45,843 nt of DNA, taken from positions 1-45,843 of the forward strand of contig CAUJCX010000054.1 of NCBI GenBank assembly GCA_963169235.1. Reading direction: 5' to 3'. The DNA comes from Actinomycetota bacterium (lineage in GTDB: Bacteria; Actinomycetota; Thermoleophilia; Miltoncostaeales; Miltoncostaeaceae). The notes under the pieces were generated by a model. That model had not been told where the DNA came from, did no database searches, and saw only the letters and a list, made by a program, of their open reading frames with translations. This document shows, one piece after another, positions 3,809 through 19,645 of this stretch. Position 1 is the stretch's first letter. Every line of letters begins with the position of its first letter. The translations under genes and the position numbers were made by a program.

Positions 3809-3814
3809 AGCCTA
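3809..3814 (-). promoter_or_regulatory. Candidate -10 box of a leaderless promoter for the HAD gene
   Basis: Read on the minus strand the box is TAGGCT, followed by exactly six bases and the GTG start at 3802. It overlaps the TAG stop of the oxidoreductase gene. TAnnnT six to seven bases before a start codon is the usual geometry of leaderless actinobacterial transcripts. The same geometry recurs at 22807, 36152 and 38653. Confidence 0.4.
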
Positions 3815-4786
3815 GCGACCGGGGCCGTCCCCGGCGGGGAGGGTGAGCACCACGTTGCCGCGCTTGTGACCGCCGTCCACGATGCGGTGCGCGGCGACGA
3901 CGTCGGCCAGCGGCAGCGTGCGGTCGACCACGGCCCGCAGCTCGCCGCGCGCGGCGCGCTGCAGCAGCCACTGGACGTCGGCGAGGCGCTCGGGCGCGCC
4001 GCCCCTCACCACGCGGCTGCGTGGCACGACGAGCTGCGCCAGCGTGGGGACGGCCAGTAGCAGCAGGCCTGCCGGAGCCAGCAACGCCGTGCCCTCGGCG
4101 ATGGAGAGGTTGCCGACGGCATCGAGCACCACGTCGTACCGGCCTCCCGATCCGGCCAGCGGCTGGCGGGCGTAGTCGATGACGTGGTCGGCACCGAGTG
4201 ACCGCACCAGCGCCGCGTTGCCGCCGCTGCAGACCGCCGTGACGGTCGCCCCGAAGTACTTCGCGATCTGCACGGCGTTCGTCCCGACCGCCCCGGACGC
4301 GCCGTTGACCACCACGTGCATGCCCGGGGCGACCCGTCCTCGGTCGCGCAGGAACCACAGCGCCGTCACGCCGCCGAAGAGCATCGCGGCGGCGTCGACG
4401 TCGGTCACGTCGTCCGGGATGCGGGCAACCGCTCCGTTCTCGGCCGCCAGCACGTACTCGGCGTGGGCGCCACCCAGCCCGTCCGTCAGGCCGCACACCC
4501 GGTCCCCCGCGGAGTGGACCACGACGCCGGCGCCCACCGCCGCGACCTCACCCGCGTAGCTGCCTCCCAGCACGGTGGCGCGCGGGCGCCGTACGCCCAG
4601 GGCGAGGCGTGGCAGGTGGCCGAAGCCCTTCGGGAAGCGGGCCCCGCGGATGCGGGCGTCGGCCACCGTGACCGGAGTCGCCGCCACCCGCACCAGTACC
4701 TGACCGGGACCGGGCGTGGGCAGCGGCACATCGCGCACCACGACGACGTCGGGCGGTCCGTACCGGTCGGCGCACGCCGCGAGCAT
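3812..4786 (-). CDS. Medium-chain dehydrogenase/reductase, quinone oxidoreductase-like
   Basis: This 324-residue NAD(P)-dependent oxidoreductase has a GroES-like N-terminal half and a Rossmann C-terminal half. PTPGPGQVLVRVAAT and AGEVAAVGAGV belong to the GroES-like part. The nucleotide-binding turn is in NGASGAVGTNAVQIAK, followed by GADHVIDY. The cysteines and histidines that bind zinc in alcohol dehydrogenases are not evident, so it is probably a zinc-free quinone-oxidoreductase-type enzyme. The start is set at the second of two close ATGs (4786) because GGAGG at 4793-4797 lies six bases before it but abuts the first ATG at 4792. It is transcribed divergently from lon, and a 7-bp inverted repeat lies in the shared upstream region. 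Its substrate is unknown. Confidence 0.9.
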   Translation of the reverse strand: MLAACADRYGPPDVVVVRDVPLPTPGPGQVLVRVAATPVTVADARIRGARFPKGFGHLPRLALGVRRPRATVLGGSYAGEVAAVGAGVVVHSAGDRVCGLTDGLGGAHAEYVLAAENGAVARIPDDVTDVDAAAMLFGGVTALWFLRDRGRVAPGMHVVVNGASGAVGTNAVQIAKYFGATVTAVCSGGNAALVRSLGADHVIDYARQPLAGSGGRYDVVLDAVGNLSIAEGTALLAPAGLLLLAVPTLAQLVVPRSRVVRGGAPERLADVQWLLQRAARGELRAVVDRTLPLADVVAAHRIVDGGHKRGNVVLTLPAGDGPGR

Positions 4787-4842
4787 TCGCATCCTCCGAG
4801 GCGGGGTGGGTCGCGGCCGAACCTACGGATCATGGGAGCGCG

Positions 4843-4867
4843 GAGGGTTAAGCGCTCGTCAACCCTC
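4843..4867. repeat. Inverted repeat GAGGGTT-N11-AACCCTC in the divergent region
   Basis: Two perfect 7-base arms (4843-4849 and 4861-4867) are separated by 11 bases that include AGCGCT. The 18-bp arm spacing fits a protein dimer binding two turns apart on one DNA face. It lies about 57 bases upstream of the MDR start and just upstream of the lon promoter, so it could serve either gene. Confidence 0.45.
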
Positions 4868-4890
4868 GGCCCGTCGCCTTCATCTCAGCC

Positions 4891-4919
4891 TTGACGACTC
4901 AAGTTACCCAGCGTAACCT
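4891..4919 (+). promoter_or_regulatory. Candidate lon promoter (TTGACG-N17-TAACCT)
   Basis: TTGACG at 4891-4896 and TAACCT at 4914-4919 are separated by 17 bases, a good fit to a housekeeping sigma factor. The -35 lies in CTTGA-N4-TCAAG (4890-4903), whose right half ACTCAAG is a perfect HspR half-site, but the spacing is not that of a standard HspR site. The first GTTAC-N5-GTAAC palindrome fills the spacer, so a bound repressor would block polymerase. Confidence 0.5.
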
Positions 4920-4944
4920 CCGACAACTGGTTACGCACCGTAAC
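4903..4944. promoter_or_regulatory. Twin GTTAC-N5-GTAAC operators upstream of lon
   Basis: Two perfect palindromes occur at 4903-4917 (spacer CCAGC) and 4930-4944 (spacer GCACC), 27 bases centre to centre. The second extends to six-base arms, GGTTAC and GTAACC. One sits between the -35 and -10 boxes and the other covers the probable transcription start region, the layout of a cooperative repressor. The binding protein is unknown. The HxlR regulator just downstream of lon is one candidate, but this is only inference from position. Confidence 0.6.
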
Positions 4945-4970
4945 CGTCTCCGTTCGAAAGGCACCGCTCC

Positions 4971-7313
4971 ATGGATCGTTCCGACCACCCGACGCATCTT
5001 CCCCTGCTTCCCCTTGAGGAAGCCGTGCTTCTGCCGGGCATGTCGGTGACCGCGCCGCTCGTGGGTGACGAGCAGACCGCGGCCGTCGACCACGCGCTGG
5101 AGCACACCGACGGCATGCTGGTGAGCGTCCCCCACATCGACGGCGCGTTCACGCCGTTGGGCGTCGTCGCCACCATCACCGGCCAGATCGCACTGCCCGA
5201 CGGCAGCCGCGGCGTGTCCATCGAGGCGCTCCACCGGGCCGAGCTGGGCCAGGCGACCGAGCGCGGCGACACGCTGGTGGTGCCCGTCACCCCCATCCTC
5301 GACCCCGACGACGTGTCCGAGCGCGCGCACGAGCTGGCGGCCGAGTACCGCGCGGTCGTGGGCGAGGTGGCCGCCACCAGGGGCGACGGTGGCCGCGTCA
5401 GCGCGTTCCTGCGCGCCATCGACCACCCCGGCCGCCTGGCCGACACGGTGGGCTACGCCCCCGAGGTGGACGCCACCCGCAAGGCCGGCGTGCTGGCCGC
5501 GGTCGACATCGAGGCCCGCCTCGAGGCCGCCATCGCAGCCCAGCGCGAGCGCCTGGCCGAGCTGCACCTGCGCAAGCGAATCCGCGAGGACGTCAGCGAG
5601 AACCTGGAGCGCACCCAGAAGGAGGCGATCCTCCGCCGCCAGATGGACGCGATCCGCAAGGAGCTCGACGAGACCAACGACGAGTCGGCCGACGACTGGC
5701 GCCGGCGCATCGCCGAGTCGGGCATGCCCGAGGCCGCCCGCAAGGAGGCCGACCGCGAGCTGGCCCGCCTGGAGCGCATGGGCGACGGCGCCGAGGCCGG
5801 CATGATCCGCACGTACCTCGAGTGGATGGTGTCGCTGCCGTGGGACAAGCGCTCGGACGACACGCTGGACGTCGCCGAGGCGCGGACGGTGCTGGACGCC
5901 GACCACACGGGCCTGGAGAAGGTGAAGGAGCGCATCCTCGAGTACCTGGCCGTCCGCCGCCTGCGGCGCGACCGTGACATGGGCGACGCGTCCACCGGCG
6001 TGATCCTGGCGCTGGTCGGTCCGCCCGGCGTGGGCAAGACGTCGCTGGGCGAGTCGGTGGCACGCGCCACCGGGCGCGAGTTCGTGCGCATCAGCCTGGG
6101 CGGCATCCGCGACGAGGCGGAGATCCGCGGCCACCGCCGCACGTACGTCGGTGCCCTCCCGGGCCGCTTCGTGCGTGCCCTGCGCGACGCCGGCACCCGC
6201 AACCCCGTCGTGCTGCTGGACGAGCTCGACAAGGTCGGCTCCGACTGGCGCGGCGACCCCAGCTCGGCGCTGCTCGAGGTGCTCGACCCGGCCCAGAACC
6301 ACACGTTCCGCGACCACTACCTGGACGTCGACCTCGACCTGTCGGAGGTGCTGTTCATCGCCACCGCCAACATGGTCGACACCATCCCCGCCCCGCTGCT
6401 CGACCGCATGGAGATCATCCAGCTGGACGGCTACACCGAGGACGAGAAGCGGGCGATCGCGACCGACCACCTGGTGCCGCGCCAGATCGAGCGCAACGGC
6501 CTGCGCGAGGGCGAGGTGACGCTGACGGCCGACGCCATCCGCGCCATCATCGGCGACTACACCCGCGAGGCGGGCGTGCGCACACTCGAGCGGGAGCTGG
6601 GCAAGGTCATCCGCAAGGCGGCCACGCGCGTCGCCGAGGGTGCCACCGACCCCATCACCATCGACGCCGGCGACCTGGTGCCCGCCCTGGGGCGGCCGAA
6701 GGTGCACCACGAGGCGGCCGAGCGCACGGCGACGCCGGGCGTGGCCACCGGCCTGGCCGTCACCGGCACGGGCGGCGACGTGCTGTTCGTCGAGGCCAGC
6801 GAGATGCCCAAGGACGGCGGCGACGGCCTGGTGCTCACCGGCCAGCTGGGCGACGTCATGCGCGAGTCGGCCCGCATCGCGCTGTCGTGGATGCGGGGTC
6901 ACGCGGGCGAGCTGGGCATCGCCGACGACCGCCTCACCGACCGCAGCGTGCACGTGCACGTCCCGGCGGGAGCGATCCCCAAGGACGGGCCGTCGGCGGG
7001 CGTCACCATGGTCACGGCCCTGGCGTCGCTCTACTCGGGCCGCGCCGTGAAGCCCAGCGTCGGCATGACCGGCGAGGTGACGCTGCAGGGGCGGGTGCTC
7101 CCCATCGGCGGGGTCAAGCAGAAGCTGCTGGCCGCGCATCGGGCGGGCCTCACCGAGGTCATCATCCCCGAGCGCAACCGCGGCGACCTGGACGACGTCC
7201 CGGCCGACGTGCTCAAGGACCTCACGGTGCACCCGGTGCTGACCGTGGGCGAGGTGCTCGACCTGGCGCTGGAGCCCGCGTGCAGCCGCCGGGATGCCCT
7301 GGCCTCCGCCTAG
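4971..7313 (+). CDS. lon: ATP-dependent protease Lon (LonA type)
   Basis: The 780-residue protein degrades damaged and regulatory proteins in the cytoplasm, as a hexamer. It shows all LonA parts in order. The N-terminal LON substrate-binding domain starts at LPLLPLEEAVLLPGM. A long helical region contains LRKRIREDVSENLERTQKE. The AAA+ module has Walker A GPPGVGKTS (about 350-358) and Walker B VVLLDELDKV. The C-terminal serine-lysine protease has the catalytic Ser675 in KDGPSAG and Lys716 in GGVKQK. Length matches the family. GAAAGG about ten bases before the ATG serves as ribosome-binding site. The promoter region carries twin palindromes, consistent with stress or repressor control. An HxlR gene follows 30 bases after the stop on the same strand. 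Confidence 0.98.
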   Translation: MDRSDHPTHLPLLPLEEAVLLPGMSVTAPLVGDEQTAAVDHALEHTDGMLVSVPHIDGAFTPLGVVATITGQIALPDGSRGVSIEALHRAELGQATERGDTLVVPVTPILDPDDVSERAHELAAEYRAVVGEVAATRGDGGRVSAFLRAIDHPGRLADTVGYAPEVDATRKAGVLAAVDIEARLEAAIAAQRERLAELHLRKRIREDVSENLERTQKEAILRRQMDAIRKELDETNDESADDWRRRIAESGMPEAARKEADRELARLERMGDGAEAGMIRTYLEWMVSLPWDKRSDDTLDVAEARTVLDADHTGLEKVKERILEYLAVRRLRRDRDMGDASTGVILALVGPPGVGKTSLGESVARATGREFVRISLGGIRDEAEIRGHRRTYVGALPGRFVRALRDAGTRNPVVLLDELDKVGSDWRGDPSSALLEVLDPAQNHTFRDHYLDVDLDLSEVLFIATANMVDTIPAPLLDRMEIIQLDGYTEDEKRAIATDHLVPRQIERNGLREGEVTLTADAIRAIIGDYTREAGVRTLERELGKVIRKAATRVAEGATDPITIDAGDLVPALGRPKVHHEAAERTATPGVATGLAVTGTGGDVLFVEASEMPKDGGDGLVLTGQLGDVMRESARIALSWMRGHAGELGIADDRLTDRSVHVHVPAGAIPKDGPSAGVTMVTALASLYSGRAVKPSVGMTGEVTLQGRVLPIGGVKQKLLAAHRAGLTEVIIPERNRGDLDDVPADVLKDLTVHPVLTVGEVLDLALEPACSRRDALASA

Positions 7314-7343: not shown

Positions 7344-7655
7344 ATGGAATGCGGTGACCACAACCCCGTGTGCAGGCGGTACCAGTCGGCGGCCGAAGTG
7401 CTCGGCCGCCGCTGGAGCCTGGCCGTCATCCGGGTGGCGCTCGACGGGCCCGCCCGGTTCGGCGAGTTCCGGGCCAGCGTCGACGGACTGTCGGCGCGCC
7501 TTCTGGCCGAGCGCCTGCGCGAGCTGGAGGAGTTCGGCGTGTTCGAGCGCCTCCAGGTGGGGCCGCGCACGTTCGAGTACCGCCTGACCCCCAAGGGCGA
7601 GGCGCTCGCCCAGGTCATCTCCGAACTGGAGATGTGGGCGAACGCCTGGGACTAG
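7344..7655 (+). CDS. HxlR-family winged-helix transcriptional regulator
   Basis: This 103-residue protein matches the HxlR/MarR-like fold. The conserved Cys (VCRRYQSAAEVLGRRWSL) sits at the start of the first helix. The phrase RFGEFRASVDGLSARLLAERL is the family signature helix-turn-helix, followed by the wing (RTFEYRLTPKGEAL). HxlR proteins are dimeric repressors or activators, often responsive to aldehydes, quinones or redox state. It follows lon by 30 bases, so it may be co-transcribed. TAGGCT at 7327-7332 could also provide a separate promoter. Its target is not visible; the palindromes upstream of lon are a possibility only. Confidence 0.92.
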   Translation: MECGDHNPVCRRYQSAAEVLGRRWSLAVIRVALDGPARFGEFRASVDGLSARLLAERLRELEEFGVFERLQVGPRTFEYRLTPKGEALAQVISELEMWANAWD

Positions 7656-19525: not shown

Positions 19526-19645
19526 GTACTTCCCCTTCGGTTCGCGCGTCTGAGGCCGTCGCTGAGGTTAGCACGCACCCCGCTCGGGCCCGGCGGCACC
19601 CCGGGGCGCCGTGACCGCGCGGTGCTTCCCTAGGATTGCGGGCCG

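Follow-up and report, generated by a model that had tools for sequence, protein, structure and literature searches.

In the stretch of DNA analysed here (the window, 45,843 nucleotides from a member of the Thermoleophilia), the promoter of the lon protease gene carries two palindromes that are real and beyond chance. Comparison of sequences makes it probable that they are operators of a regulator of the HxlR/DUF24 family, predicted to be a thiol-sensing repressor that autoregulates a lon-hxlR operon. The HxlR protein encoded directly behind lon had been proposed as the regulator in a first-pass annotation of this DNA, and that candidate is well supported by comparison across Thermoleophilia, where the predicted operator appears to follow hxlR both when the gene is linked to lon and when it is not. 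From position and family we infer binding, repression rather than activation, co-transcription of the two genes, and a thiol signal. Chemical damage, and not the usual heat-shock circuit, may be what turns lon on in these bacteria.

Architecture of the lon promoter

Two perfect copies of GTTAC-N5-GTAAC, 27 bases apart, had been described at first pass in the spacer and over the start region of the lon promoter, and the description proved accurate (Table 1). Neither copy has a mismatch, the distance of 27 bases is that between their starts, and the arms of site 2 extend to GGTTAC...GTAACC at 4929-4945. A strict consensus promoter scanner called no promoter in 4780-5000; our assignment comes from reading the sequence together with the frame TTG-N3-N17-TA-N3-T, which recurs in 8 of 10 family promoters, that of the window among them. 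TTGACG and TAACCT are separated by a spacer of 17 nt, and relative to the start expected from TAACCT, site 2 spans approximately +3 to +18.

Table 1. Features of the lon region, in window coordinates
Feature	Position	Strand	Basis and remarks
Quinone-oxidoreductase-like gene, divergent to lon	3812-4792	minus	Best NCBIfam match PIG3 family, below cut-off
-35 element TTGACG, lon promoter	4891..4896	+	By eye; TTG here in 8/10 family promoters
Operator site 1 (candidate)	4903..4917	.	GTTACCCAGCGTAAC; GTTAC-N5-GTAAC, perfect; fills -35/-10 spacer
-10 element TAACCT	4914..4919	+	By eye; overlaps right arm of site 1; frame in 8/10 family promoters
Operator site 2 (candidate)	4930..4944	.	GTTACGCACCGTAAC; GTTAC-N5-GTAAC, perfect; over start region
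Likely ribosome-binding site GAAAGG	4956..4961	+	By eye
lon (endopeptidase La)	4971..7313	+	TIGR00763, 805.8 bits (cut-off 608.05); Pfam Lon_C, AAA, Lon_lid, LON_substr_bdg
hxlR, YodB-like winged-helix regulator with Cys10	7344..7655	+	PF01638, 73.4 bits (cut-off 20.8)

With one site in the spacer and on the -10 element and the other over the start, the palindromes occupy places that would block polymerase, and the layout was read at first pass as that of a repressor, a reading that position and family fit. HxlR could also bind the same palindromes and activate lon, as its Bacillus namesake does with its own target when formaldehyde is present; activators are known in the family, the B. subtilis protein responding positively to that compound (PMC7835342, excerpt). 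However, both palindromes lie downstream of TTGACG and no operator site is found upstream of the -35 element, and the frame that defines these positions recurs in 8 of 10 promoters, so we regard activation as quite improbable and continue to favor repression.

Conservation of the palindrome with linked hxlR

Twelve genomes, that of the window included, carry a full-length or nearly full-length copy of this lon and form the family set. The set excludes a partial lon in G035 and an additional partial copy at a contig edge in G006. Ten of the 12 encode a close hxlR directly behind lon, at least about 59% identical to that of the window over aligned rows. In one of these, G001 (locus L033), the lon match is split, with lon reaching to 19535 or beyond and hxlR beginning at 19587, so that the genes are adjacent. 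Non-recurrence of the motif upstream of lon in relatives had been named at first pass as a result that would refute the proposal, and the outcome was the opposite: all 10 lon promoters with a close linked hxlR have TTAC-N5-GTAA within 120 bp, and neither of the other two does, one belonging to a genome in which no hxlR was found (G008) and the other to a genome with a distant hxlR (G020, 39%).

Perfect GTTAC-N5-GTAAC sites number 13 across nine of the 12 family genomes, all 13 just upstream of lon, and the reversed control matched once across the set (G019). Whole-genome search found no perfect site in G006, G008, and G020, the first of which has a one-base variant at lon. When the 10 promoters were aligned, the arm bases of site 1 equaled the consensus in 97 of 100 cells; column means were 9.7 of 10 in the arms, 4.6 of 10 in the center, and 6.05 and 5.57 in the flanks. 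Seven of these promoters also have, 25 to 31 bp away, a second site in which 9 or more of the 10 arm bases are kept; in the other three, site 2 is degraded or missing.

In the genome of the window (2.94 Mb, 65 contigs), exact GTTAC-N5-GTAAC occurs at only these two places (reversed control, 0), and the same is true of the looser TTAC-N5-GTAA (reversed control, 1). A search of 396 phylum genomes for perfect twins with a gap of 8 to 18 returned three, all at the lon promoter of the window's family, with no reversed-control match among the rows listed. Chance or plain promoter constraint could point to the overlap of the -10 element with one palindrome arm, and to the absence of any excess of matches with up to two mismatches within the window (3 found, 3.02 expected). 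That explanation is contradicted by the uniqueness of the pair in the genome, by control searches of the same 10 family promoters (0/10 for permuted arms and 0/10 for gaps other than 5), and by the better conservation of arm columns than of flanks; we give it next to no credence.

The lon and hxlR genes

The lon of the window is the only strong Lon match in this genome, and hxlR starts 30 bp after it on the same strand, so the two are presumed to form one operon. The regulator belongs to the HxlR/DUF24 family by a PF01638 domain above the curated cut-off, its best PDB match is YodB (5hs7, E 8.7e-18), and an AlphaFold2 model built on a 10-row alignment (pLDDT 84.3, pTM 0.72) has helices and a beta wing in winged-helix order. 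Three further HxlR genes are present in this genome, none of them with TTAC-N5-GTAA upstream, because the pattern occurs nowhere outside the lon promoter.

All 10 family HxlR proteins have Cys10, and in the alignment to YodB 5hs7 it falls on the N-terminal cysteine. The sensor cysteine is Cys6 in YodB and Cys11 in Bacillus HxlR (PMC6798810, PMC8063818, and PMC7835342, excerpts), and in the latter protein the residue is reported to be conserved and to sense electrophiles (PMC7835342, excerpt). The window protein has no cysteine after Cys10 and so lacks the C-terminal partner of the YodB type, and no second conserved cysteine was found among the 10 family proteins. Since Cys10 is the only one common to all 10, these proteins cannot use a two-cysteine disulfide of the YodB type; the single Cys10 would still be open to alkylation.

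The lack of a disulfide partner for this one shared cysteine, along with the variety of signals among family members, leaves some room for a repressor of lon that answers to a bound ligand or metal instead of to thiol chemistry. We consider such a signal unlikely, if a serious contender, given the invariance of Cys10, its alignment with the YodB cysteine, and the recurrence of N-terminal cysteines in unlinked and in other lon-linked HxlR groups. A thiol signal acting through Cys10 is the reading that we carry forward.

Other HxlR subfamilies behind lon

Lon loci were also compared across the class, 119 of them being examined among the matches listed from 182 class genomes with this lon; some contig-edge matches were skipped, and one locus (L116, G283) came from the palindrome pattern search. 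Adjacency was counted in 113 usable loci, after six with too little downstream sequence had been dropped. An hxlR gene lies behind lon in 55 of the 113, 10 of the window type and 42 and 3 of two other subfamilies, and a tree of 73 HxlR proteins, computed from few columns, separates the groups (97/98 for the window type, 100/99 for the group of 42). The first-pass description of an unusual lon autoregulatory unit therefore stands in part: the link between HxlR and the palindromes is supported, but lon followed by hxlR is a frequent arrangement in this class, mostly with another subfamily.

Within the group of 42, TTAC-N5-GTAA is found at lon in only one locus, so that each operator keeps to its own regulator. 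When palindromes were counted de novo in that group, no clear operator emerged (top 4/42, shuffles up to 3). Control of lon by every linked HxlR cannot be claimed. Proteins of the group (for example, at L016, L017, L070, and L138) have an N-terminal C-x-x-C-like start, and CTTAC-N9-GTAAG is seen in four of the promoters. The class also has another type of lon, approximately 50% identical, in which the palindrome is absent from the upstream 200 bp (L022-L032); in several genomes (L022-L030), another reading frame seems to come immediately before this lon.

Unlinked hxlR and a probable operator in trans

Beyond the family, the best-matching relatives of the window HxlR are mostly encoded away from lon: of the 20 best nonfamily loci, 4 are lon-linked and 16 are not. 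TTAC-N5-GTAA is found within 950 bp upstream in 11 of these 16 unlinked loci (permuted arms, 0 or 1). In the unlinked loci examined, hxlR is flanked by a gene of the carboxymuconolactone-decarboxylase (CMD) family on its upstream side and by one for glutamine synthetase on its downstream side, with the palindrome ahead of the CMD gene. At L125:2062-4001 and at L123, L124, and L126, CTTAC-N5-GTAAG stands ahead of a cluster that runs from a CMD-family gene through a YodB-like hxlR to a glutamine synthetase gene.

Across 12 genomes of the unlinked type, CTTAC-N5-GTAAG has 25 sites, compared to three for the reversed control, and by position 12 are at the hxlR gene or cluster, 5 at lon, 3 at a sigma-70-type gene, and 5 elsewhere. 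Two genomes (G075 and G157) have only two such sites genome-wide, one in the lon promoter and one at the hxlR cluster. The sigma-70-type genes with CTTAC-N5-GTAAG upstream encode regions 1.2-4 and lie at L113:978-1895 (G265), L118:2204-3097 (G352), and L119:1066-1947 (G136); they are possible further members of the regulon.

With an unlinked HxlR as the query, a search of 80 genomes returned a larger set of 30 loci. TTAC-N5-GTAA is upstream of hxlR in 16 of the 30 (permuted controls, 0 to 3), and a sister palindrome, CTTA-N7-TAAG, in 25 (permuted controls, 0 to 1). Fifty-nine genomes had no hxlR seen behind lon (in G283 the sequence ends before the downstream gene), and they divide into 41 with an unlinked hxlR and 18 without. 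CTTA-N7-TAAG, a form chosen after seeing the data, is in the lon promoter in 17/41 of the former versus 0/18 of the latter (Fisher p 0.0011, relatedness ignored), and for strict TTAC-N5-GTAA the counts are 11/41 versus 0/18 (Fisher p 0.013, relatedness again ignored). In 24 of the 41 genomes with an unlinked hxlR, no palindrome is found at lon; G213, where the site at lon overlaps the assumed start, was excluded from the lon-promoter counts.

Elsewhere in the phylum, 15 HxlR relatives were found, none lon-linked in the DNA examined, and TTAC-N5-GTAA is upstream of three (permuted, 0 to 1). In other classes of the phylum (L256-L265), GTTA-N7-TAAC lies just upstream of an unlinked YodB-like hxlR in 6 of the 15 as listed, a count made without a control, which suggests an old autoregulatory operator.

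Heat-shock and Clp-linked regulators

Another protein, such as HspR, ClgR, or a regulator yet to be named, could bind the palindromes, with hxlR a passenger. Precedent exists for both named candidates, as HspR acts on lon in Streptomyces (PMC2687793, excerpt) and ClgR affects it (PMC9775585, excerpt), and in the window an HspR-like arm, ACTCAAG, abuts TTGACG at 4890-4903. Neither published consensus fits, the HspR-like arms are absent from the promoters of relatives that were compared, and the palindrome follows hxlR even where hxlR is unlinked to lon, so we hold a passenger hxlR to be very improbable. HxlR itself is the regulator that we continue to favor.

The HspR operator consensus is TTGAGY-N7-ACTCAA (PMC2687793, excerpt). 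In the window, TTGACG and ACTCAA abut at 4891-4902 with the 7-base gap missing, and the first-pass remark that the layout does not match the standard HspR element is borne out. The sequence at 4890-4903 over the -35 element, CTTGACGACTCAAG, resembles both HspR arms joined without a gap, and it is absent in nine related promoters. The ClgR motif, GTTCGC-N5-GCG (PMC9775585, excerpt), is not in 4880-4970 by eye. The divergent quinone-oxidoreductase-like gene was considered as a second target of the palindromes; the distance from site 1 to its ATG is 111 bp, and since it has no relative in the other 30 loci compared, shared control with lon is not supported.

Model for control of lon

According to the mechanism that we propose, one HxlR dimer would sit on each palindrome, the dimer at site 1 occupying the promoter between the -35 and -10 elements and the dimer at site 2 the start region. 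RNA polymerase would be kept off and the lon-hxlR operon held low, an instance of negative autoregulation. A reactive compound (a quinone, an aldehyde, a disulfide, or another source of thiol stress) would modify Cys10 and cause HxlR to leave the DNA; from the released operon, Lon would then be made to clear damaged proteins, and newly made HxlR would reset the switch.

A broader proposal, which we put forward tentatively and judge somewhat short of an even chance, is that Lon in Thermoleophilia moved from the heat-shock circuit to an electrophile- and thiol-stress regulon of a YodB-like HxlR. The regulator gene would be in an operon with lon (the window's family, and another subfamily elsewhere) or would act in trans from a CMD-hxlR-glnA cluster, in a regulon that extends to a sigma factor resembling group 2. 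Regulator and outer operator base (G or C) would have diverged together, and Lon would respond mainly to chemical damage to proteins rather than to heat.

Control of Lon has so far been known mainly via heat-shock or Clp-linked circuits. If correct, our model would describe a conserved one-gene thiol switch on lon that couples protein quality control directly to chemical damage. It would also give an HxlR clade that is otherwise unstudied a defined operator with almost a single target, and offer a compact inducible system and a clear, testable case of a regulator changing between cis and trans arrangements in step with its operator.

Comparison with known systems

In open-licence PMC papers, we found nothing on TTAC-N5-GTAA, nothing on HxlR in Thermoleophilia, and no account of lon being controlled by an HxlR-type protein, whether in cis or, across a class, in trans. 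The one paper that came up for HxlR together with Lon protease is, to judge from its title, a transposon study of Proteus. Chi et al. are said to have given, in 2010, TTAC-N5-GTAA as the operator of CatR.

Two known systems place lon under other regulators. In Streptomyces, clp and lon are under ClgR, a system that resembles the present case in that a lon regulator binds a gapped palindrome, but ClgR is an activator, its arms are different, and its motif is absent here by eye (PMC9775585, excerpt). HspR with its HAIR element likewise represses lon in an actinobacterium, Streptomyces (PMC2687793, excerpt), but that system involves another protein family and another operator, of which the window holds only the half-matching arms without their 7-base gap.

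The closest likeness is to the YodB/CatR/QsrR group of MarR/DUF24 redox repressors from Bacillus and Staphylococcus, with which the window HxlR shares the PF01638 fold and an N-terminal cysteine at the same place. The candidate operator, a short-armed palindrome within the promoter, and the predicted autogenous layout would also be alike. In contrast to YodB, which prefers TACT-N7-AGTA (PMC8063818, excerpt), the spacing here is TTAC-N5-GTAA, and the C-terminal partner cysteine is missing. Known targets of YodB/CatR/QsrR-type repressors are quinone and azo reductases, nitroreductase, and dioxygenases (PMC6798810, excerpt), whereas the target here would be lon. The kind of regulator and operator is already known, and it is the probable target, lon, that is unexpected.
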